Origin: a virus
DNA: 33,164 nt
IMG/VR virus record: IMGVR_UViG_3300017917_003890
Coordinates: 1-33,164 of that record
Direction: 5' to 3' (one strand)
The position numbers were made by a program, and so were the translations under genes. The notes under the pieces were generated by a model that saw only the letters and a program-made list of their open reading frames with translations, searched no databases and was not told where the DNA came from. How positions within the stretch are numbered: position 1 is the stretch's first letter; every line of letters begins with the position of its first letter. Shown here in pieces: positions 1 to 28,011 of the stretch.

Positions 1-13
1 CTAGCTAATTACT

Positions 14-20
14 AGGAGGA
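14..20 (+). promoter_or_regulatory. Strong Shine-Dalgarno site of the first gene
   Basis: AGGAGGA lies 6 nt before the ATG at 27, separated from it by a T-run. It is close to the ideal complement of the 16S rRNA 3' end and fixes the start of the first gene. Confidence 0.85.
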
Positions 21-26
21 TTTTTT

Positions 27-614
27 ATGACTATAGCATTTGTATTGGGCAACGGTGTCAGTAGACAAGGATTAGATTTAAATCTGCTGAAAACACTTGG
101 CACAATTTACGGATGTAATGCTCTTTACAGAGAATTTACTCCAGATGTGTTAGTCAGCACAGATACACCAATCAGTCAACGTATACAAACAGAAGGTTAC
201 AGTAAAAATAATCGGATGTATACAAGAAACCCTATACCATCGTTGGGTGCGCAGAGACTGCCACAAGAGTACTTTGGATTTAGCTCAGGACCTGCTGCTG
301 TAGGAATAGCTGCTTTTGACAAAAATAAGCGAATTTATTTGCTTGGATTTGACATGGGACCTGACCAGTTTGGAAAATTTAACAATGTCTATGCTGACAC
401 TGAATTTTACAAGAAGAGTTCGTCGGTGCCCACTTACACCGGGAACTGGATAAAACAATTACTGACAGTAATGAAAGAACACAGCACAATAAAATTCATA
501 CGTGTCATGGGCGAAACTACCGCTGAAATTCCCGAATTAAGAGGTGCCAAAAACCTTGATCACATGGGATTGGGAGAGTTCCTAACCCGTATAAATAACA
601 CAAAGGAACTCTAA
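27..614 (+). CDS. Glycosyltransferase-like (GT42 / DUF115-like) protein next to fibre genes
   Basis: A 195-aa protein with an ideal ribosome-binding site. The N-terminus (VLGNGVSRQGLDLNLLK, then YGCNALYREF and VLVSTD) has the G-N-G-x-S ... C-N pattern seen in GT42 sialyltransferase-like and DUF115/MptE-like nucleotide-binding folds. Residues about 86-110 (SSGPAAVGIAAF then IYLLGFDM) look like the second half of the same Rossmann-type fold, where GT42 enzymes have a T/S-G motif followed by a strand ending in G-x-D. No signal peptide or membrane segment is visible. The stop abuts the ATG of the first fibre gene, so the two are co-translated. An attractive inference is that it modifies the Ser/Thr/Asn-rich fibres or a host glycan, but the catalytic residues cannot be assigned by eye. 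Similar small proteins occur beside fibre genes of other aquatic T4-like phages without known function. Confidence 0.5.
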   Translation: MTIAFVLGNGVSRQGLDLNLLKTLGTIYGCNALYREFTPDVLVSTDTPISQRIQTEGYSKNNRMYTRNPIPSLGAQRLPQEYFGFSSGPAAVGIAAFDKNKRIYLLGFDMGPDQFGKFNNVYADTEFYKKSSSVPTYTGNWIKQLLTVMKEHSTIKFIRVMGETTAEIPELRGAKNLDHMGLGEFLTRINNTKEL

Positions 615-2108
615 ATGGCTATCTATAAGCGTGTTGCTGGCAACCTTGTTGTTCAAACTGTGGGTGCTACTGATTCTGTTACATTTCAAGGCCTGACCGC
701 CAATACTGCCACAGTCATCATTGATGGTAATTTGACTGTTACTGGCAACGCTGCACTCACTGGTAACATTTCTGGTGACAACATTTTTAACGGCACAACA
801 AGTATTGCTATTCCTGTGGCCAGCGGCAATGCCAATATTACCATTGGTGGCACCAGCAACGTAGCTGTTTTTGCTACCACGGGCACTTATCTCAAAGGAA
901 TTGCCAGTGTCACTGGCAACGTAACAGTAGGAAATTTATCAACAGCAGGAAACGTTAATACCTCAAATCTTATTATTAACAGCAACGGTAGTGAATACAT
1001 AAACTTTACTTCAGCAACTGGTGTCGATCCTGTTATACGTTTTACTGATGCAAACACTACTGGTGCATTGGCAGCAAACATTGGCGGCATTGAATGGTAT
1101 ACCAATGATGCCACTGGAGCAGGTGCCAGGGTTACTGCTGGTATCAAAGCAGTTTACAGTGATACCAATGGCAACACAAATATTTTAATTCAAACAGGTG
1201 CAACTACTACACCTGCAACTAGAATTGCTATTGTGGGCGCAACAGGCAACGTTGGGTTTGGTGGTAACGTAGCACCGGCTCATACAGTGGCAGTAACTGG
1301 CAACATTTATGCTAGTACTCAAATCACTGCTGTGGGCAACATTGCAGGTGGCAATATCAACACCGCCGGGCTGGTCAGTGCAACTGGCAATGTCACTGGC
1401 GGAAACATAAACACTGCTGGATTGATTACTGCAACCGGCAACATCACTGGCGGTAACATTATTAGTTTGGCTGCTGTTAGTGCAGGTTCGGCAGGTGTAA
1501 GTGCAACCGGCAATATCACCGGTGGTAACGTCAATTCAAACCAATTAATATCAGCAACAGGAAACATTTTTTCAGGCGGTAATTTACTAACTCAAGGATA
1601 TGTCAGCGCCACAGGTAACTTGCTTGGCGCTGAATTACAAGCTGCAAACGCCAATATATCAAGCAGAATGTACGGATCTGGTATAGGTGTTGAAAACATT
1701 GTGTGGCAAAGCACAGATGCCAACATCAGTTCTGCCAGCATGGCCAACGTGGGTACCTTGGGATTCTCGGCTTTGGCTGGATCAACTTATAAGTTTGAAG
1801 CATATTTGCCTGTAATACCCACTGGCTCTACCACTACAGCATTTGCATTAAACTTCTCTGCTGGAACATGCTATTATACATTGAGTTCTCAAACTACAGC
1901 AACATCGGCATTTGCAATTGCTAGCTCTACAACGTCAGATTCTACAGGCACAACTCAATCCATGACTGGCACTGATTTAAGAACAGTCAAAATCGAAGGC
2001 ACATTCTACCATACTGGCAACGTCAATGTGGCGGTCCGCGCCCAGACCAGTGCTGCAAACGTAGCAGTTAAAAGCGGTGCTTATCTCACTTACACAAGAA
2101 TCGGCTAA
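615..2108 (+). CDS. Repeat-containing tail fibre-like structural protein (497 aa)
   Basis: The ATG directly follows the stop of the upstream gene, with AGGA about 8 nt ahead. The N-terminal third is irregular beta-rich sequence. Residues about 235-350 consist of 17-residue repeats (SATGNVTGGNINTAGLI type) shared with the two following long proteins. The C-terminal 150 residues (from about RMYGSGIG to the end) are not repetitive and resemble a beta-sandwich fibre tip: hydrophobic strands around LAGSTYKFEAYLPV and a conserved-looking end, SGAYLTYTRIG. The composition (Gly, Asn, Thr, Ala, Ser, almost no Cys) is typical of trimeric fibre shafts. The role is inferred as receptor-binding or whisker/fibre; no named family is certain. 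Confidence 0.65.
   Translation: MAIYKRVAGNLVVQTVGATDSVTFQGLTANTATVIIDGNLTVTGNAALTGNISGDNIFNGTTSIAIPVASGNANITIGGTSNVAVFATTGTYLKGIASVTGNVTVGNLSTAGNVNTSNLIINSNGSEYINFTSATGVDPVIRFTDANTTGALAANIGGIEWYTNDATGAGARVTAGIKAVYSDTNGNTNILIQTGATTTPATRIAIVGATGNVGFGGNVAPAHTVAVTGNIYASTQITAVGNIAGGNINTAGLVSATGNVTGGNINTAGLITATGNITGGNIISLAAVSAGSAGVSATGNITGGNVNSNQLISATGNIFSGGNLLTQGYVSATGNLLGAELQAANANISSRMYGSGIGVENIVWQSTDANISSASMANVGTLGFSALAGSTYKFEAYLPVIPTGSTTTAFALNFSAGTCYYTLSSQTTATSAFAIASSTTSDSTGTTQSMTGTDLRTVKIEGTFYHTGNVNVAVRAQTSAANVAVKSGAYLTYTRIG
1345..1641 (+). repeat. 17-codon repeat block in the 497-aa fibre protein
   Basis: Successive units of about 51 nt encode variants of [ST]ATGN[IV]xGGN[IV]. The DNA units are diverged at third positions, so this block is old compared with the exact repeats farther downstream. 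Confidence 0.7.
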
Positions 2109-2112
2109 ACTC

Positions 2113-2154
2113 TAATCCGCATCTTTTGGTAAATACACCAGAGGATCCGGATTA
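2113..2154 (+). promoter_or_regulatory. Long RNA hairpin burying the RBS of the giant fibre gene
   Basis: The arm TAATCCGCATCTTTTGGT (2113-2130) pairs with ACCAGAGGATCCGGATTA (2137-2154): 15 Watson-Crick pairs, two G-U pairs and one C-C mismatch over 18 positions, with loop AAATAC. The Shine-Dalgarno sequence GAGGAT (2141-2146) is entirely inside the 3' arm. There is no T-run after it, so a terminator is unlikely. In a transcript reading through from the upstream gene the ribosome site of the gene at 2158 would be masked. Confidence 0.75.
2128..2135 (+). promoter_or_regulatory. Late-promoter-like octamer GGTAAATA
   Basis: It matches 6 of 8 positions of the T4 late consensus TATAAATA and sits 22 nt before the ATG at 2158. 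It lies at the tip of the 2113-2154 hairpin. With T4 spacing the transcript would begin near 2141, after the 5' arm and loop, leaving GAGGAT free. Confidence 0.5.
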
Positions 2155-2157
2155 CCT

Positions 2158-5100
2158 ATGGCACAACAAATAATAAACGTTGGTAACGTGGCCAACGATG
2201 GAACAGGCGAAGCGTTACGTGATGCGTTCATCGCCGTAAACAACAATTTTACAGAGCTGTATGCAAATGGCACAGCGGGCAGCAATGTGGTAATCACTGG
2301 TAACACCATCAGTGTTACTGGCATTAATAACAATCTTGTATTGGCAGGCAACGGTATTGGCAATATACAAGCCAACAGCACAATTGTACCTGCAATAGAC
2401 GGTGTATTCAACATTGGTACATCAACAAACAAATTTAACACAATACAAGCACAATATTTTGTAGGTAATGGCAGCGGACTTACTGGTGTAGTTGCAGACG
2501 TTACAGAAATAGCCAATGGTTCAAGCAGCATCAGCATTCCGGAAGTCAACGGCGATGTAACAATTAACTCTCGAGGCGTTTCTAATGTTGCTGTTTTTGG
2601 AAGCACAGCATCAACTTTTAAAGGCAACATATTGCCAGCAGCAAATGTTGCTTACAATATTGGATCTTCTACAGCTCGATGGCATAATCTTTACCTCAGT
2701 GGCAACACCATTTATCTAGATGATGCAACAATCAGTGCAAATTCAACAAGCTTGATACTAACAAGCCCACTAGGCGGAACGTTTACACTAACCGGCAGCG
2801 AAGATTTTTCAACAAATGCAATCAGCTTTGGAACTTCATCTGTTGATATACCAGTTGCAAATAGCAACGTTAATATCAATGTAGCTGGAGTACAAGCTGC
2901 TAAGTTTACTTCAACTGGCCTACAAACTTTAAACGCCAGCGTAGCCGGCAATGTGCAAGCTGCATACTTCATTGGCGACGGCGGCTTCTTATCTAATGTT
3001 ACTGCTACTGGTAACATGGCCGTAACACAGATTCAAAATGGATCAACTGTTATATCTATTCCTGCATCCAATGGTAATGCAGTGTTTACTGTTGGTGCCA
3101 TACCCAATGTTTTAGTTGCTTCTCCTAGTGGAGTAACAATTGGTGGCAACTTACAAGCCAATTATTTGTTGGGTAATGGTGCAGCAATCAGCGGCCTAAC
3201 ACAAACAATTACATCTAATGTTGCAGCGTATTTGCCAACATATACTGGCAATTTGGCAGCACTGCAAGGCAATGTAATCACCGCTGCTAATGTTGCAGCA
3301 AATTATTTTGTTGGCAATGCTGCGGCATTGACAAATATTCCAGCAGCCAATCTTGTTGGAGTCATTGCCTCTACCAGCAACATTGGAACAACTGCTAATG
3401 TTATTGCCAATGTGTTTGTTGGTACTACACTGCGAACAACAAACAGTGCCACAGTTGGATCGCTGAGCACTACAGGCAATGTTCAAGCTGGAAACGTTAG
3501 AACACAAGGCACAGTAAGCGCAACTGGTAACATTGAAACTGCAGGTTATTTTGTCGGTAATTTTGCCGGAAATATCACTGCCAATATTGTTGTACCTGGC
3601 TCAAACACACAGGTATTGTTTAACACCAATGGTAGCGCGGATGCTGTAGGTGGATTCACTTACAACAAAGATTCTAACACTGTATCGGTTTTAGGAGACA
3701 TCAGCGCCCAAGGAAACATAATAAGCGGGAATATTGAAACTGCTGGTGATATCAGTGCAGTTGGAAATGTTGTTGCTGCAACTTTTACAACTTCAGGAAC
3801 CAATGGAAATATTAGCGGAGCCAATGTAATATCGTCGGCATCAATGACAGCCGCTGGCAATATTTCTGGTGGCAATATTATTGCCAGTGGAGCATTGAGC
3901 ACAACTGGCAACGTTGTTGGAGCCAATTTAAATGGCGTAAGGTTAAGTCTCAGTGGCAACGTAATCAGCCCAATCAATACTGATCAAAACTTTACAACAA
4001 CTGCCAACGTAAATGCCGGCACAGTTAATGCAACCAGTGTGCAAGGTAATTTGATTGGGTCGGTGCTGGCCAATGATTTGACAACAGTGTTTGATGCGGC
4101 CAACAACACTGTTAACACAAACAAAGTTACTGCTGGCAATGTCAGTGCAACAGGAACAGTTAGTGCAGTCAGTGGAACATTTAACACTGTATCTGCGGTT
4201 GGTAATATTTCAGCAGCCAATGTCAATACTTCATCGCTGTATCTAACTGGTAATATTTTTGGAAATATCAGCACAACCAACAACATTGTTACTACTGGTA
4301 ACATTACTGGAAACTACATTTTTGGTAATGGCAGTCAACTGACTGGACTGCCAGAAACTTATGCTAACTCAAACGTACAAGCCTATTTGCCAACGTACAC
4401 AGGAAACTTGGCTGCATTACAAGGCAATGTAACTACTACTGCCTCAGTTAATGCTACTAATTTGAGTTTGTCTGGAAATGTTTTGAGTGTAATTTCTACA
4501 AACTCAGACATCAATACAACTGCCAATATCTCTGCTAGTTACTATACTGGTAATGGCAGATTACTCACTGGCATTATCAGCAGCTACGGAGACAGTAATG
4601 TTGCAGCATATTTGCCAACTTATTCAGGAAATTTAGTTTCGTTAACAGGGCCAGTTACAACAACATCAACTATTACAGGTGCTGTTGTTTCATCTACTGG
4701 CAATGTGGTTGGTGGTAATATTGTAACTGCTGGATCAGTTAGTTCTACTGGCAATGTGGTTGGTGGTAATATTGTAACTGCTGGATCAGTTTCTGCTACA
4801 TCTGTAATTTCTGCTGCTGGCAACGTCATAGGTGGCAACATCAACACAGCAGGACAAATCAGTGCAACTGGAAACATTACCACTGCTGGTTATATTGTTG
4901 GTAATGTAATTGGTAATATTTCAGTATCGGGTTCTAACACACAAATACTGTTCAACAATCAAGGACTGGTAGGAACTGCTGCTGGATTTACTTTTAATTC
5001 AGCAAGCAATGTCTTTAGCACTCCAGGATCAGTGACCGCAGTAGGCAACGTACTCGGCGGCAATTTGCTCACTGGCGGTCTAATCAGTGCTCTTGGCAAT

Positions 5101-7920
5101 GTTTTTGGCGGAAACCTTAATTCTGCAGCATTGGTCAGTGCTTCGGGCAATGTCATAGGTGGAAATATTGTAACCAGCGGAGCAGTTAGTTCTACGGGAA
5201 TGGTAAGTTCCGCTGGCAACGTAGTTGGTGGAAATATAGTTACTGGAGGTATAATTACTGCCGCTGGTAACGTCATTGGTGGCAACATTGTTACCAGTGG
5301 AGCATTGAGCACAACCAGCAACGTAGTTGGCGGCAATATCAACACTTCTGGATTGATATCTGCAGCAGGCAATGTAACAAGTGGGAACTTGACCACAGGT
5401 GGTCTGGTTACAGCAACAGGCAATGTCATAGGTGGAAATATTGTCACAGTTGGATTGATGCAATCTGGATCAATTAATACAACCGGTGATGCATTAGTTG
5501 GCGGTAATTTAACAGTAAATGGAAATCTTGTTTACGTCAACGTTGAATCTCTCAACATCAAAGACCCGATACTAGCCATTGGTAGAGGACCAAACAACAC
5601 TCCGTTGTCTAGCAATGATGGAAAAGATCGAGGCGTTGATTTATTCTATTACGACACACAAGAAAAACAAGCATTCATTGGATGGGATGTTAGCACAGCA
5701 AAGTTGATTGCTGCTGCAAACGTATTGATTGCCAACGAAGTTGTAACAGTACAACAATATGGAACGTTTGTAGTAGGCAGCTTAGAATCAACTACTGTTT
5801 CGGCCGCAGGCAATGTAACTGGCGGGAACTTGGCCACTGCTGGACTGATTACAGCAACTGGTAACATCACTGGCGGAAACATAAATGCCGCTGGATTGAG
5901 TCTAAGTGGCAATGTTGTATCTCCATTGAATATAACCGGAAATATCACCAGCGGCAATATTATTTCTGCTTCTGCAATCAGTGCCGGAGGCGCATTATCG
6001 GCAACAGGGGCAATTTCTGGAGCATCGTTAACTGCCAGCGGTAACGTAGTTGTAGGCAACGTCAACACAACCGGACTGATTACAGCAACTGGAAATGTCA
6101 CTGGCGGAAATATTGTAACAGGCGGTTCAGTAAGTGCTGCTGGTGCAGTGAGCGCATTTGGAAATGTCACCGGTGGCAATGTTGTAACACTTGGTTTAAT
6201 TAGTTCTCTGGGAAATATTACCGGCGGAAACATCAATACCGGCGGGCTAATAAGTGTAACAGGCAACATAACAAGTGGAAACGTCAACACCGGAATACTA
6301 AGTGCAACTGGTAATATTCGCGGTGGCAATATCAATACAGCCGGGTTGGTCAGTGTTACAGGAAATGTTATTGCAGGCAATATCCAAGGTGGTGCCAACG
6401 TCAATGCTACTACACTAACAGGAACCACAGTTTCAGTTACTGGCACTATCACAGGTGGCAATTTAGCCACTGGTGGAACAGCAAGTGCTACGGGTAACAT
6501 TACCGGCGGCAATTTATTAACCAGTGGTTTGATATCTGCTACAAGCACCGTCACCGGCGGCAATCTAGCTACCACAGGTACTATTACTTCTGGATCAACC
6601 GTTTCGGCCGCAGGCACCATCACTGGCGGTAATTTAACAACTGCCGGAACAATTACTACAAGTTCTACTATATCTGCCACTGGTAACATTACTGGCGGCA
6701 ATATCTTGGGTGGTGCCAATGTTAATGCTACTACTTTTACAGGCAGCACAGTCAGTGTCAGCGGAACAATCACTGGTGGCAATGTAAACACTGGTGGTGT
6801 TGTCAGTGCTGCTGGAAACATTACTGGTGCAAATATCAACACCAGCGGCGGTGTTTATGTAACTGGTAACATCAGTGCAACTGGTAACATCACAGGTAGT
6901 TATATCTTTGGTAACGTTGTCGGATCATTCTCTGTTCCAGGATCAAACACACAGGTGTTGTTCAACAACAACGGAGTTGCTGGAGCCGACGACGGATTTG
7001 TTTACGATTCAGTTGCTAATACATTAACTGTTGGTGGCAAGATAGTAACAACCAACGGCGGCGACTTAGACGTAGCCGGACGTATCAGTGCTACTGGAAA
7101 CATTATTACTGGTGTTGGAAACATAAGCGGCGGAAACGTATTAGCGACTGTGATGATTGCAACCGGTAACATCACCGGAGGTAACATTCTTACTTCTGGA
7201 TTGGTTAGTTCAACCGGAACAATTACCGCAGCATCAAATATTTCTGGAACCAATATCAATGGATCTGGTGTAGTATCTGCTGTTGGCAACATCATTGGCG
7301 GAAACATTAACACTGCTGGACAAGTATCTGCAGTCGGCAATGTCACAGCTGGTAATGTCAACGGCGGTGCAAACGTATTTGCTACTACTCATACAGGTAC
7401 CACAGTCAGCGTCACTGGTAACATCACAGCTGGTAATGTCAACGGCGGTGCAAACGTATTTGCTACTACTCATACAGGTACCACAGTCAGCGTCACTGGC
7501 ACCATTACTGGCGGTAACTTGGCAACTGGCGGCACTGTTAGTGCAACTGGAACAATTACATCAGCAGGAAATATTGTCGGAGCAAATGTAAACAGCACAG
7601 GTTTGGTAAGCGCCAGCGGAAACTTGGTTGGTGGAAATGTTACAACGTCTGGACTAATTACTGCCACAGGTAACATTACTGGTTCAAATATAAACGGCGG
7701 CGTTCTTTCGGCAACATCAAACGTTGTTGGCGGAAATTTAAATGCAGCCGGATTGAGTCTAAGCGGAAATATTGTAAGTGCATTGAACTCGACCTTCAAT
7801 ATCACAACCACTGGCAATATTTCTGCCAATAACATCACTGCTACAAACTCCATAAATATTGCAGGAGATCAAGTAGCTACAGTAGACGACGCAACTGCAT
7901 TAGCAATTGCATTAGGATAA
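2158..7920 (+). CDS. Giant repeat tail fibre-like protein (1920 aa)
   Basis: The N-terminus (INVGNVANDGTGEALRDAF then NNNFTELY) is a recognisable start module of T4-like phage structural proteins. Then follow YFVGNGSGLTGV-type elements, NVQAYLPTYTGNLAALQGNV-type elements (about residues 352-372, 740-760, 815-835) and long arrays of the 17-residue unit SATGNITGGNINTAGLI, in places alternating with a 27-residue variant containing GGANVNATT. Three copies of a GSNTQVLFN...G element (about 481, 926, 1601) punctuate the arrays. Residues about 1128-1200 hold a non-repeat module, KDPILAIGRGPNNTPLSS then GKDRGVDLFYYD, common in aquatic T4-like fibres. The short C-terminus (GDQVATVDDATALAIALG) lacks an obvious tip or chaperone domain. 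It is probably a long trimeric beta-structured shaft. The start has SD GAGGAT in a hairpin. Confidence 0.75.
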   Translation: MAQQIINVGNVANDGTGEALRDAFIAVNNNFTELYANGTAGSNVVITGNTISVTGINNNLVLAGNGIGNIQANSTIVPAIDGVFNIGTSTNKFNTIQAQYFVGNGSGLTGVVADVTEIANGSSSISIPEVNGDVTINSRGVSNVAVFGSTASTFKGNILPAANVAYNIGSSTARWHNLYLSGNTIYLDDATISANSTSLILTSPLGGTFTLTGSEDFSTNAISFGTSSVDIPVANSNVNINVAGVQAAKFTSTGLQTLNASVAGNVQAAYFIGDGGFLSNVTATGNMAVTQIQNGSTVISIPASNGNAVFTVGAIPNVLVASPSGVTIGGNLQANYLLGNGAAISGLTQTITSNVAAYLPTYTGNLAALQGNVITAANVAANYFVGNAAALTNIPAANLVGVIASTSNIGTTANVIANVFVGTTLRTTNSATVGSLSTTGNVQAGNVRTQGTVSATGNIETAGYFVGNFAGNITANIVVPGSNTQVLFNTNGSADAVGGFTYNKDSNTVSVLGDISAQGNIISGNIETAGDISAVGNVVAATFTTSGTNGNISGANVISSASMTAAGNISGGNIIASGALSTTGNVVGANLNGVRLSLSGNVISPINTDQNFTTTANVNAGTVNATSVQGNLIGSVLANDLTTVFDAANNTVNTNKVTAGNVSATGTVSAVSGTFNTVSAVGNISAANVNTSSLYLTGNIFGNISTTNNIVTTGNITGNYIFGNGSQLTGLPETYANSNVQAYLPTYTGNLAALQGNVTTTASVNATNLSLSGNVLSVISTNSDINTTANISASYYTGNGRLLTGIISSYGDSNVAAYLPTYSGNLVSLTGPVTTTSTITGAVVSSTGNVVGGNIVTAGSVSSTGNVVGGNIVTAGSVSATSVISAAGNVIGGNINTAGQISATGNITTAGYIVGNVIGNISVSGSNTQILFNNQGLVGTAAGFTFNSASNVFSTPGSVTAVGNVLGGNLLTGGLISALGNVFGGNLNSAALVSASGNVIGGNIVTSGAVSSTGMVSSAGNVVGGNIVTGGIITAAGNVIGGNIVTSGALSTTSNVVGGNINTSGLISAAGNVTSGNLTTGGLVTATGNVIGGNIVTVGLMQSGSINTTGDALVGGNLTVNGNLVYVNVESLNIKDPILAIGRGPNNTPLSSNDGKDRGVDLFYYDTQEKQAFIGWDVSTAKLIAAANVLIANEVVTVQQYGTFVVGSLESTTVSAAGNVTGGNLATAGLITATGNITGGNINAAGLSLSGNVVSPLNITGNITSGNIISASAISAGGALSATGAISGASLTASGNVVVGNVNTTGLITATGNVTGGNIVTGGSVSAAGAVSAFGNVTGGNVVTLGLISSLGNITGGNINTGGLISVTGNITSGNVNTGILSATGNIRGGNINTAGLVSVTGNVIAGNIQGGANVNATTLTGTTVSVTGTITGGNLATGGTASATGNITGGNLLTSGLISATSTVTGGNLATTGTITSGSTVSAAGTITGGNLTTAGTITTSSTISATGNITGGNILGGANVNATTFTGSTVSVSGTITGGNVNTGGVVSAAGNITGANINTSGGVYVTGNISATGNITGSYIFGNVVGSFSVPGSNTQVLFNNNGVAGADDGFVYDSVANTLTVGGKIVTTNGGDLDVAGRISATGNIITGVGNISGGNVLATVMIATGNITGGNILTSGLVSSTGTITAASNISGTNINGSGVVSAVGNIIGGNINTAGQVSAVGNVTAGNVNGGANVFATTHTGTTVSVTGNITAGNVNGGANVFATTHTGTTVSVTGTITGGNLATGGTVSATGTITSAGNIVGANVNSTGLVSASGNLVGGNVTTSGLITATGNITGSNINGGVLSATSNVVGGNLNAAGLSLSGNIVSALNSTFNITTTGNISANNITATNSINIAGDQVATVDDATALAIALG
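4693..4791 (+). repeat. Exact 48-nt tandem repeat, period 51 nt
   Basis: Positions 4693-4740 are identical to 4744-4791. The period is 51 nt, so exactly one 17-residue fibre unit is duplicated, with no synonymous change. This points to recent slippage or unequal recombination. Confidence 0.9.
7343..7499 (+). repeat. Exact 76-nt tandem repeat, period 81 nt
   Basis: Positions 7343-7418 are identical to 7424-7499. The 81-nt period corresponds to one 27-residue unit (TAGNVNGGANVFATTHTGTT core). The lack of silent differences marks a very recent duplication inside the giant fibre gene. Confidence 0.92.
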
Positions 7921-7924
7921 TAGT

Positions 7925-8260
7925 ATGGCAAACACTTTTACAAGAAAACTCGCTAGACAAGTTGGTACTTCAGCTATCCAGGTTGGTAGTTATGAAGTAC
8001 CTTCTGCTACAACCACAGTGGTAGTTGGACTCAGCGTTACCAACATAACTGGCGGAGCAATTACTGTTGATGTATACATTCAAGACAATGCAGCAAACAA
8101 CACATATCTAGCAAATGATGCACCCATTAGCTCAGGTTCAAGCTTGGTTGTAGCCGGTGGCGATCAAAAGATTGTTTTAATCACAGGCGATAAAATTTAC
8201 GTGCAAAGCAGTGCAGCAAGTAGTGCAGACGTGGTAATGAGCATAATGGAAATCACATAA
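7925..8260 (+). CDS. Small virion-associated protein (111 aa), fibre cassette
   Basis: It starts 4 nt after the giant fibre gene; AGGATAATAGT before the ATG supplies a ribosome site from the end of that gene. The protein is beta-rich, without Cys, signal peptide or membrane segment. Landmarks are FTRKLARQVGTS at the N-terminus, ITGGAITVDVYIQDNAAN in the middle and DKIYVQSSAASSADVVMSIME at the end. This looks like a compact single-domain beta-sandwich. Similar roughly 110-aa proteins sit between fibre genes of aquatic T4-like phages. An adaptor, collar or fibre-joint protein is the natural guess, but no function is established. Its stop overlaps the next start as TAATG. Confidence 0.6.
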   Translation: MANTFTRKLARQVGTSAIQVGSYEVPSATTTVVVGLSVTNITGGAITVDVYIQDNAANNTYLANDAPISSGSSLVVAGGDQKIVLITGDKIYVQSSAASSADVVMSIMEIT

Positions 8261-11200
8261 TGAGTTACGTTGGTATTAATCCTCAAACACAACTGCTGAA
8301 TACTAGCACCGAAACCTTTAGTGGTAATGCAGTAAACATGCAGTTTACGTTATCACGAAGTATAGCGTCAGCATCGGATATTGACGTTTTAATCGGTAAT
8401 GTACTTCAGCGTCCGTTTGCTGATTATACCGCTGGAAATGTCACACTGTTGTTTAGCAGTCCTCCTGCCAGCGGCACAAACAACATCACCGTAACTTATC
8501 GTGCTGGTGCATTAAACAGCTTGAACTTGGAAGTGCAAGCATTTGGTGCTGGAACAGTTGGCTCTCCAAGTATATACAGTGTTGCAGCCAATAACACTGG
8601 TTTATATTGGGGCAATGCCACAACTTTAAATGTTGCAGTGGCCGGTACCAACAAGGTATCGATTACAAACGACAACAATTCTCATAGTGCAACCGATGGT
8701 GCATTGAGAGTACAAGGCGGAATTGGTGCAACCGGTAATGCTCACATAGGTGGACATGTACATGTTCTCGGCACCGATCCAAGCACATCAGTATCAACTG
8801 GAGCGTTACTGGTGGCCGGCGGTGCAGGTATTACAGGCAACCTTAACATTGGTGGCGGCATTACCTGTGTTGGCGACTTTGTGGTCAATGGAACATTTAC
8901 TACCACAGGAACTGATAGTCTTGACGTAACTGATCCATTTGTATTTTTGGCCAATGCCAACCCTGGCGACACATATGATACTGGAGTAACCAGTCAATAC
9001 AACGATGGCGTTGTAACTAGGTATACCGGTTACTTTAGAGATATCACTGATTCAAAATATAAATTTTTTAGCAATTTAACAGTAAGACCAACAACCACAG
9101 TTGCCACAGATGATCCAAGTTTTAAATACGCAGACGTTGTTGGCGCAAACATAAGTGCAACTGGAAATGTTAGTGGCACTTATTTTGTTGGTAACGGCAG
9201 TTTTCTAACTGGAATCAGTACCACCACAAATACTATTTTTAATGCAAACTCAACAATAACAATACCATCTACCAATGGAAATATTGTTGCAAATGTCAAT
9301 GGTGCAACGGTTGCAGTTATAAGTGCTTCGGGCATGGTAGTCACCGGAAACATAAGTGCAAGCACTACAATTACTGCCACAAGCAATATTACCGGTGGTA
9401 ATATTCTCACAGCCGGCATTATCAGTGGAACAGGCAATATTACTTCAGCATCAAATATTTCAGGTGCAAATCTTGTAACTGGCGGATTAATTAGTGCAGC
9501 AGGTACAGCCACAGTTGGTAACTTAAACACCGGCGGATCAATTAGTGCAGCCGGTAACATCACAGGTGGAAACGTTAACACTGCAGGATTGGCCAGCATT
9601 GGCGGAAACGTTCAAGGTGGAAATTTACGAACCGCAGGCCTAGTAAGTGCTACAGGAGATGTATACGGTAACAATCTTTCAGCAACTACTGCTATTACTT
9701 CTGGCGGAACAATCAGCGCAACCACCAACGTATTGGCAGGATCAAGTGTCAGTGCTGTCGGTGCAGTCAATGCTGGATCTACAATAAGTGCCGTTGGAAA
9801 CATCACTGGTGCTAACATTAATGTTACAAATGCAAGTTTAAGTGGCAACGTTGTTTCAGCGCTCAACGTTACTGGGGCAATCACTGGTGCGTCTGTAACC
9901 GCAGTAGCAAACGTTCAAGGAGCCAACGTTAGAAGTTCAGGCGCATTGAGTGTAGCTGGCACTACAACATTGGCAGGACAAGTTGATTTAACTACAACCA
10001 CTGGTACAATTGGAATCGGAACAAGTCAGACCACAGGAACCATTACAATTGGTGCCACAGGTCAAACTGGTGCAATAACAATTGGACAATCCACTGATAC
10101 TCAATCTATTAGTTTGGGTACTGGAATTACAGCCAACGCAAAAACAAAAACTATTGAGATTGGAACCAACGGCACTACTGGTTCTACCACTACAATTAAT
10201 ATTGGACCTGGCGGCGCAACACCGGGTGCCGGAACCACTAATTTTGCAACTGGTATCACTGTAGCAATTGCAAATACTGGAGCATCAGCTCTAAGCGTAG
10301 CAGGTAACATCACTGGCGCCAACTTAAGAACAGGTGGCACTTTATCAGCAACTGGTAACGTATCTGGTGGCAACATTATCAGTGCTGCTGCAATAAGCGC
10401 AGGTGGATTGATCAGTGCTGCAGGCACAGTAACTGGCGGTAATTTAGCCACTGGCGGAACAATAACCACAGGATCTACTATATCGGCTACAGGTACTATT
10501 ACAGGTGGCAACGTTCTCACAGCAGGCCTAATTAGCTCTACTGGAAACATTACTTCGGCCGGAAACATTGCTGGTGGCAATGCTATTATTACAGCGTTGG
10601 TACAAGGTACAACGCTGAGTGCATCTGGAAACATAATTGGCGGAAATTTAAATGCTGCAGGATTAAGCCTCAGCGGAAACGTTGTCAGTGCAATTAATTC
10701 AACTAGTAGTATAGCTACAACAGGAAATATCAACGGTGGAAACCTTAATGCAACTAGCTCAGTTACTGGCTCAGTTGTAAGTGTAACTGGCACCATTACT
10801 GGTGGTAATTTGGCCACTGCTGGTACCATTACCACCAGTTCTACAATATCAGCAACTGGTAATATCACTGGCGGCAACATCCTTGGTGGAGCCAACGTCA
10901 ATGCTACCACATTTACTGGCTCTACCGTAAGTGTTACTGGCACCATTACAGGTGGCAACTTGGCCACAGGCGGTACAATATCAGCAACTGGCAATATCAC
11001 AGGTGGCAACATTTTGGGTGGAGCCAACGTCAACGCTACAACCCATACAGGTACTACTGTGTCAGTTACAGGCACTATTACTGGTGGTAACGTAAACACT
11101 GGTGGTGCAGTATCAGCAACTGGTAACATCACTGGCGGTGGATTAGTTGGAACTTTGTACACCAACAGTATTATCAATACTGGTGCTAACCTTACTGGTA

Positions 11201-26900: not shown

Positions 26901-27307
26901 ACATCAACCCAATCACCTTTATTCCAGGTGTTGGTATTACCAACTTTGGTAACAAGACTACAACTACAACAACCACAGCGTTGGATCGAATCAACGTTGC
27001 ACGTTTGATCTGCTTCTTGCGCTCACGCCTGGAGCAAATTGGTAAGTTGTACTTGTTTGAACCCAACGACGAAATTACTCGCAATGAAATCACCAACACT
27101 TGCAACAGCTTGATGATTGACTTGATTGCTAAACGAGCAATTTACGACTACTTGGTAGTTTGCGACTTGAGCAACAACACTCCTGCACGTATCGACCGCA
27201 ACGAGTTGTGGGTGGATATTGCTATTGAACCAGTCAAGGCAGTGGAATTTATCTATATTCCGTTGCGTATCAAGAACACTGGCGAGATCTCTGGAGCAGC
27301 AGCCTAA
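23999..27307 (+). CDS. 18: Tail sheath protein gp18 (1102 aa)
   Basis: The N-terminus MALVSPGVEVTVIDESQY is the classic sheath start. The C-terminal domain (SYPWLAPAGTRRGVV, INPITFIPGVGITNFGNKT, ICFLRSRLEQIGKLYLFEPN, DLIAKRAIYDYLVVCD, VEFIYIPLRI) is the conserved sheath core that polymerises around the tube and contracts. At 1102 aa it is well above T4 gp18 (659 aa). The extra mass lies in the middle, probably as surface-exposed insertions: residues about 237-320 (VGDTIIVNGTVVAVPV, LATAITNAL) and 457-540 (VGNRFTIAASAAG, VSDFIAAV) are two similar small modules like flagellin hook 'IN' domains. W-rich hairpins (YKRYDNTWALIG, YRWEPVNGVAQWVAVN) flank them. The start is fixed by AAAAGGA; a TTG at 23981 is an artefact of frame extension. 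Confidence 0.95.
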   Translation: MALVSPGVEVTVIDESQYIPSAVNTVPYFVVATAQNKVSSDGITVAAGTLAANANKTYLITSQRDLAATFGVPFFYNTTTGTPINGYELNEYGLLAAYSALGVTNRAYVQRVDIDLTELTASLSRPTGQPNNNSYWLDTSNSNWGIFEWNQTTATWTNKTPIVVTSSADVVGGDGTDPAADCTPLDSVGSIGDYAVVALDPYIYGYYKRYDNTWALIGSDSWKTAWPTVVGTNAPTSLTVGDTIIVNGTVVAVPVTNTVAGLATAITNALSGFGVSASSSNGKLAFYANSTASSDGSTLSDDGIVNITAGAVNGTALLTALGLAEGTYAAPQYLPAYSYQAPRWRTTDAAGGRPTGSVWQNISSANNGLNLSVKKYSTTLGEWVKQNCPAYANDYAALYGIDPSGGGKNIPVGTTYVGYNSSQYLTTPLTTFSFTILNRYSFGALEVTGSTVFGTSPAFTVGNRFTIAASAAGSSTPNTGIAIIGGTGTVSDFIAAVSSANVPYVSASVNSAGNIVLTHSQGGTIALANTLGTPVTTAGFTLQTPKIRRSFVNANTLVLSNFVDTPLFTYSADNVAPQQDPADGRLWYYSSVSDVDIMIQDNGIWQGYQNVNNDVRGFDLSLTNASGPIVAASAPTTQNDVAESPLQYGDLWIDSSDLENYPMIYRWEPVNGVAQWVAVNTTDQVTQNGILFADARWAPNGTTDPVADPFPTIESLLTSNYLDLDAPDPALYPQGMLLFNTRRSGYNVKSFQSNYFNSDSFPDDVLPAVKSTWLTASGNKDNGSMWSGRLAQRQMIVKAFKSGIDTSIAAREEQNEFNIIATPGYPELTPNMIALSNERNNTLFVVADTPMRLSNAGNDLVAWATNNNGEGLTTEDGNVATSNYAAAFYPSCQTTDLSGNTVVAPPSHMMVRTILRSDAVSYPWLAPAGTRRGVVDNATAIGYIDAATGEFQQIGVSQAVRDILYERNINPITFIPGVGITNFGNKTTTTTTTALDRINVARLICFLRSRLEQIGKLYLFEPNDEITRNEITNTCNSLMIDLIAKRAIYDYLVVCDLSNNTPARIDRNELWVDIAIEPVKAVEFIYIPLRIKNTGEISGAAA

Positions 27308-27313
27308 TGAAAA

Positions 27314-27336
27314 GGGGACCGATTTTTTCGGTCTCC
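27314..27336 (+). terminator. Hairpin between sheath and tube genes
   Basis: GGGGACCGA (27314-27322) pairs with TCGGTCTCC (27328-27336), 9 bp with one G-U pair and a T5 loop, 6 nt after the sheath stop. No T-run follows, so it may be an RNA-end or processing hairpin rather than a strong terminator. Its 3' arm (TCTCC) could alternatively pair with the tube ribosome site GGAGA (27359-27363). Confidence 0.55.
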
Positions 27337-27342
27337 GATTCA

Positions 27343-27350
27343 GGTAAATA
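27343..27350 (+). promoter_or_regulatory. Late-promoter-like octamer GGTAAATA of the tube gene
   Basis: 6 of 8 matches to TATAAATA, the same variant as at 2128. It lies 19 nt before ATG 27370 with AGGAGA in between. Confidence 0.5.
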
Positions 27351-27369
27351 AACATATAGGAGATAACAA

Positions 27370-28011
27370 ATGGCAGTTTCATCACTACAGCGTATGACAG
27401 TACCGTTGGCCAGCGACCAAAGTTCGCCGTCACAAGGTCTGTTGATGCCCAAACTCAAATATCGCTTTAGAGTGATGTTTGAAAACCTTGGCATTTCTAA
27501 GCCAACAACAGAATTAACCAAGCAAGTTGTTTCAGCCGGACGTCCAAATTTGACTTTCGAAGAAATCACATTGCCGATTTACAACAGTACACTTAAACTA
27601 GCTGGTCGTCACAGCTGGGCAGACATCACTGTTGCAATTCGCGACGATGCCTCTGGCAGCGTAAGCAAGCTAGTTGGCGAACAGTTGCAGAAGCAAATGG
27701 ACTTCTTGGAGCAGGCTAGTGCAGCAGCTGGCGGCGATTACAAGTTCTTGACCAAGATTGAAATTCTAGACGGCGGCAACGGTGCTGCGACCCCAGTGGT
27801 TCTAGAAACTTGGGAATTGTATGGTTGCTATATCAAAGGAGCCAACTACGGCGACCTGAACTATGGTACCAACGAAGCAGCTCAAATCGAACTGACCATT
27901 GCTTATGACAACGCTAACCAGACACCAAACGGTACAGGCGTTGGTACAGCAATTGGCCGTGTTGTCGGAGACGTCGTAACAGGTGTCGGCGGCGGCACAC
28001 AAGCTGCTTAA
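27370..28011 (+). CDS. 19: Tail tube protein gp19 (213 aa)
   Basis: It follows gp18 as in T4. The sequence has the T4 tube pattern: KLKYRFRVMFENLG, KQVVSAGRPNLTFEEITLP, WADITVAIRDDASGSVSKLV, TPVVLETWELYGCYIKGANY, GDLNYGTNEAAQIELTIAYD. It forms stacked hexameric rings of the inner tube through which DNA passes. The length is close to T4 gp19 (163 aa) plus a Gly-rich tail (GTGVGTAIGRVVGDVVTGVG) that could close a lumen or act as a flexible end. AGGAG sits 8 nt before the ATG. It is followed by a second tube-family gene 16 nt downstream. Confidence 0.92.
   Translation: MAVSSLQRMTVPLASDQSSPSQGLLMPKLKYRFRVMFENLGISKPTTELTKQVVSAGRPNLTFEEITLPIYNSTLKLAGRHSWADITVAIRDDASGSVSKLVGEQLQKQMDFLEQASAAAGGDYKFLTKIEILDGGNGAATPVVLETWELYGCYIKGANYGDLNYGTNEAAQIELTIAYDNANQTPNGTGVGTAIGRVVGDVVTGVGGGTQAA

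Follow-up and report, generated by a model that had tools for sequence, protein, structure and literature searches.

A candidate late promoter-in-hairpin gate before a giant fibre-like gene of large uncultured phages

In phage T4 some genes are preceded by a leader hairpin that late RNA escapes, since it starts without the hairpin's 5' arm (PMC3014915, PMC2988022); the late RNA of gene e, the lysozyme gene, lacks the 5' arm in this way (PMC3014915). The T4 late promoter is a box at positions -13 to -6 (PMC2988020). The lysozyme type of gate is known from a few T4 and Aeh1 genes, and an element of the same anatomy is described here that is fixed before a giant fibre-like gene.

The window, that is the whole stretch of DNA analysed, is a virus record of 33,164 bases with a T4-like tail and neck module (tail sheath, tail tubes, gp3-like sheath stabilizer, gp4-like head closure). 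The hairpin considered here lies downstream of the stop (2108) of a 497-aa ORF and upstream of the ATG (2158) of a 1920-aa ORF. The features are as follows, with the basis of each in brackets.

592..597, + strand: TAAATA, putative late-promoter core of ORF 615 (ATAAATAA nearly invariant in homologues)
615..2108, + strand: upstream gene for a 497-aa fibre-like protein, its stop 4 nt 5' of the hairpin (ORF; homologues)
2113..2154, + strand: RNA hairpin (folding, covariance model, covariation, arm swap)
2128..2135, + strand: predicted T4-type late promoter GGTAAATA, positions -13 to -6 (near-invariance in relatives; TAAATA enrichment)
2140..2146, + strand: ribosome binding site AGAGGAT in the 3' arm of the hairpin (sequence; unpaired probabilities)
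2141, + strand: predicted late transcription start, +1 (T4 spacing; PMC2988020)
2158..7920, + strand: gated gene for a 1920-aa fibre-like protein, MAQQIINVGNVANDGTGEALRDAF... (ORF; N terminus conserved in relatives)

PHROG and Pfam gave no match for the 1920-aa ORF or for the 497-aa protein. In a distant relative the N terminus of the gated gene matches 'baseplate wedge tail fiber protein connector', and by way of this weak homology the label 'fibre' is plausible for the 1920-aa ORF. Searches of cultured phages returned one weak Bradyrhizobium phage match for the fibre N terminus (protein) and no match for ORF 615-2105 (protein) or window 1-8000 (DNA). Close relatives are thus absent among cultured phages, and viral contigs contain many relatives; homologues of the 497-aa protein occur in 259 candidate stretches of such contigs.

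Hairpin and late promoter

The first-pass annotation had described an 18-position stem (15 Watson-Crick pairs, two G-U pairs and one mismatch) with the loop AAATAC, a late-promoter-like sequence at its tip and the Shine-Dalgarno sequence wholly in the 3' arm, and sequence and folding bear out this anatomy. The 17 pairs form an outer stem of 7 bp (2113-2119/2148-2154) and an inner stem of 10 bp (2121-2130/2137-2146) on either side of the mismatch C2120 x C2147, and the loop occupies 2131-2136. The 5' arm reads TAATCCG-C-ATCTTTTGGT and the 3' arm ACCAGAGGAT-C-CGGATTA; GGTAAATA is present at the tip, and AGAGGAT is contained in the 3' arm.

The region 2100-2165, whose folding energy had been proposed as a check, folds at -24.3 kcal/mol (z -5.6), and 0 of 200 shuffles fold equally well. 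Across both strands of the 33 kb, 112 of 22,066 66-nt windows (0.5%) fold at least as well as the hairpin, so its energy alone is unremarkable; the hairpin is remarkable for its place and conservation rather than for its energy. An Rfam search with the hairpin gave no family at the curated threshold, the best score (18.1 bits against a gathering score of 100) being at chance level.

GGTAAATAC at 2128-2136 is the sole exact copy within the window. The promoter differs from the T4 consensus TATAAATA at -13/-12, where it reads GG; late promoters of Aeh1 also deviate from T4 at these positions (PMC2988020). With the T4 spacing, +1 is placed at the first G of GAGGA, and by analogy with T4 a transcript would start there, at 2141. 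In two large relatives 36% and 33% of TAAATA occurrences lie 4-45 nt before ORF starts, as against 0-14% for permuted hexamers in the same two genomes. Judged from sequence, TAAATA has late-promoter character in the relatives, and promoter activity is predicted.

A late sigma of the gp55 type is matched in 10 of 14 large relatives, among them G001 (306 aa, phrog_12791, E 6e-75), and no such match is present in four of the 14 records; the window itself is a 33-kb fragment. Sigma-70-like sites in 1-2300 occur at chance frequency, so early promoters in this region can be argued neither way. Elsewhere in the window a terminator-like repeat, GGGGACCGATTTTTTCGGTCTCC, lies at 27300-27370, just 5' of the GGTAAATA late promoter of the tail tube gene.

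Masking of the ribosome site

The folding computation gives the ribosome site an unpaired probability of 0.002 (0.2%) in RNA that reads in from upstream, and of about 0.68-0.94 in RNA that starts at 2141. Within the longer RNA, then, the site is sequestered in the 3' arm of the hairpin, and the putative late promoter, recognized by its sequence and the TAAATA enrichment, lies inside the hairpin and 5' of the site; both traits are those of the T4 switches. Among 21 gene starts of the window the fibre-gene ribosome site is the most buried (mean unpaired probability 0.07; others 0.33-0.88). A scan of late promoters for upstream sequence that pairs with the ribosome site ranks the hairpin first in the window and likewise in G001. 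In two T4 stretches scanned as a control, e and soc rank first in theirs, and the leader at 10637, beside the annotated I-TevII gene, also folds strongly; the e, soc and I-TevII-type leaders are documented T4 cases (PMC3014915, PMC2988022).

The element is probably a promoter-in-hairpin translational gate. RNA reading through from upstream would contain both arms and fold, burying the fibre ribosome site; phage late polymerase (gp55 type) would start at the loop promoter and give RNA from about 2141 that, being without the 5' arm, would leave the site free and be translated. Most of the fibre would then come from the gene's own late promoter. We infer that the hairpin folds and represses in vivo, and probably, as for the T4 lysozyme gene, only RNA begun at the loop promoter is translated.

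The upstream stop lies 4 nt 5' of the stem, and in most relatives 19-20 nt separate it from GGTAAATAC; this position would also suit a constant brake or coupling device that acts on every RNA and is opened by ribosomes ending at 2106-2108, the promoter-like loop being incidental. A ribosome at that stop would presumably, from general footprint knowledge, cover the RNA up to about 2119-2121; with RNA hidden up to 2119-2121, however, the ribosome site is still more than 96% paired. In other relatives, moreover, the distance from stop to promoter is 24 to 52 nt, and the promoter sequence hardly changes and never leaves the loop. We consider a brake of this kind unlikely and retain the promoter-in-hairpin gate.

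The leader of ORF 615 serves as a control: its relatives keep promoter and ribosome site, but mostly without a hairpin. ATAAATAA in this leader is nearly invariant, though ATA accounts for 17.5% of Ile codons in one relative. In the window phage a 9-bp repeat around the ORF 615 late promoter (574-614: AGAGTTCCT...TATAAATAACACAA...AGGAACTCT) masks the ribosome site of this gene as well; as a second gate it was rejected, being weak or absent in most relatives.

Conservation and linkage to the fibre gene

In 62 relatives that have the upstream gene, the leader contains a nearly fixed core, TTTTGGTAAATACaCCAGAGGAc, between variable flanks; this conservation is not built into the set, because the relatives were gathered through the upstream protein. 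Across 52 distinct related leaders there is little change in promoter and ribosome site, part of the relative set having been retrieved by a pattern containing the promoter core, and the arms vary. The arms vary together, as in TAATCC/GGATTA, GTATTCC/GGAATAC, AAACAAG/CTTGTTT, CAATCA/TGATTA, GTAAACTTA/TAAGTTTAC and ATAGATACG/CGTATCTAT.

Of the cells in a 33-row alignment 79.4% pair, and sliding the partner leaves no more than 50% paired; 40 cells are changed on both sides, compared with 19.3 in shuffles. Pair 11-47 is UA in 18 rows and AU in 12, with four changes on the poorly resolved tree of fibre N termini. RNAalifold recovered no more than the inner 6 pairs, since bulges displace the outer arms from one relative to the next, and an arm-swap test was therefore used: over the 52 distinct leaders the mean energy is -16.0 kcal/mol with the cognate 5' arm and -11.9 kcal/mol with a swapped one (Wilcoxon p 1.7e-9, an optimistic value because the rows are related). 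By covariation and arm swap the stem is thus conserved with compensatory changes, as the first-pass annotation had suggested looking for.

Conservation of the structure has two exceptions, L067 and L070, in which the stem is rearranged and the ribosome site mostly unpaired (0.76 and 0.68); L013, L115, L149 and L186 are among several leaders with weak stems or partial masking. The rearranged stem of L070 is ATCCTGG/CCAGGAT, with promoter and AGATGA in the loop (fibre leaders of L067 and L070, about 7000-7060).

The promoter stands at the centre of an inverted repeat, as it might if the dyad worked in DNA, as an operator or a cruciform around the promoter. In the leaders, however, 107 of 755 pairs are G-U, C-G and U-G interchange, and in 48 of 52 leaders the sense strand gives the better fold of the two; frequent G-U pairs and better sense folding point to RNA, and a function of the dyad in DNA is very improbable.

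A covariance model scores the window hairpin at 73.9 bits (E 4.6e-15; the window is included in the model) and finds one strong copy in each of 14 large relatives, whose records span 108-364 kb; one record has a further match, no better than chance (E 0.6). The 14 were selected for having the element or the upstream gene, so copy number and place are informative and frequency is not. The genes 5' of the element vary, coding for the 497-aa fibre-like protein, a homologue of the window's 1124-aa protein or a protein of the Fe-S biosynthesis type, with an HNH endonuclease between the last of these and the element in L119; despite these differences the element remains before the fibre gene in the larger relative set. 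It tracks the fibre gene, not the upstream gene, and therefore serves the gene downstream.

The same linkage bears on whether the hairpin, which directly follows the upstream stop codon, forms the 3' end of the upstream gene as a terminator or processing site: the element is kept with the fibre gene even where another gene stands upstream. Against an intrinsic terminator, the + strand continues after the stem with CCTATGG instead of a T tract and has no terminator call at 2113-2160, and we consider a 3' end structure of either kind to be highly unlikely.

Two further leaders were seen in G011. A 98-aa gene (L209:1779-2075, - strand) has in its leader (about 2076-2130) a 10-bp repeat, ACTCCTACAT/ATGTAGGAGT, with the loop CATAAATA and the ribosome site in the 3' arm, and this leader is likely a second gate of the same kind as the fibre hairpin. 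A 146-aa gene with a signal-peptide-like start (L214:1749-2189, + strand) has a strong hairpin of -21 kcal/mol around TGTAAATA just 5' of its start.

Read-through RNA and comparison with T4

The first-pass annotation read the element as an early-off/late-on switch, of which the loop promoter, the masking, the conserved stem and the anatomy of T4 e stand; that the silenced RNA is early is not supported in the window clade. Virion-type genes adjoin the element on its upstream side in the window and near relatives, and some of them, ORF 615 included, have their own late promoter; the upstream block of G001 comprises portal and capsid genes that have late promoters, together with a homing endonuclease gene and one gene of opposite orientation. 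The silenced RNA is therefore probably partly late, and because the upstream genes of this clade are of late type the 'early' rationale of T4 is not directly transferable. Late read-through into the hairpin could come from TAAATA at 592-597.

In a second clade (L119, L109) non-structural genes, for superoxide dismutase and Fe-S protein, lie upstream, and early or middle read-through, which fits the T4 logic better, is plausible there. In L119 (4171-10209) genes for superoxide dismutase, Fe-S biosynthesis, NAD synthetase, a cell-wall hydrolase and HNH stand directly before the fibre gene.

The gene order of the window clade favours, at least partly, exclusion of late polycistronic RNA, a matter of amount, over exclusion of early RNA, a matter of timing; the gate may fix how much fibre is made rather than when. 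It is possible, and we suggest it only tentatively, that in this lineage of large uncultured phages the one gate per genome, on a giant host-contacting fibre gene, is a stoichiometry insulator and not an early-off switch; late polycistronic RNA would then be shut out too, and fibre supply would depend on the gene's own promoter only.

The literature searched holds no report of T4-like late promoters inside fibre-gene hairpins. The closest described system is T4 gene e, ATACCTTC-TATAAATACTT-AGGAGGTAT, in which, as in the window hairpin, the late-promoter sequence is flanked by the two arms and the ribosome site forms part of the 3' arm. The window hairpin differs in its longer, two-part stem, and its sequence relation to e is limited to the promoter core; e gates a lysis enzyme behind early read-through, whereas the gated gene here codes for a giant fibre-like protein behind largely virion-type genes. 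The ribosome site is also sequestered in long RNA, as here, in T4 soc, gene 49, I-TevI/II/III and segB and in Aeh1 mobE (PMC2988022, PMC3014915), and in the scan soc and the I-TevII-type leader have the late-promoter box inside the hairpin; these genes are on early or middle transcripts, in contrast to the virion-type neighbours in the window. Late promoters of S-PM2, KVP40 and Aeh1 share the NATAAATA-type core (PMC2988020, PMC2984593). The window element is best taken as a new member of the T4 e/soc/I-TevI switch type, placed in a gene context new to that type; comparative support for it is broad and spans a large group of uncultured phages, and it suggests that such gates can act between late genes, which would alter their presumed purpose.
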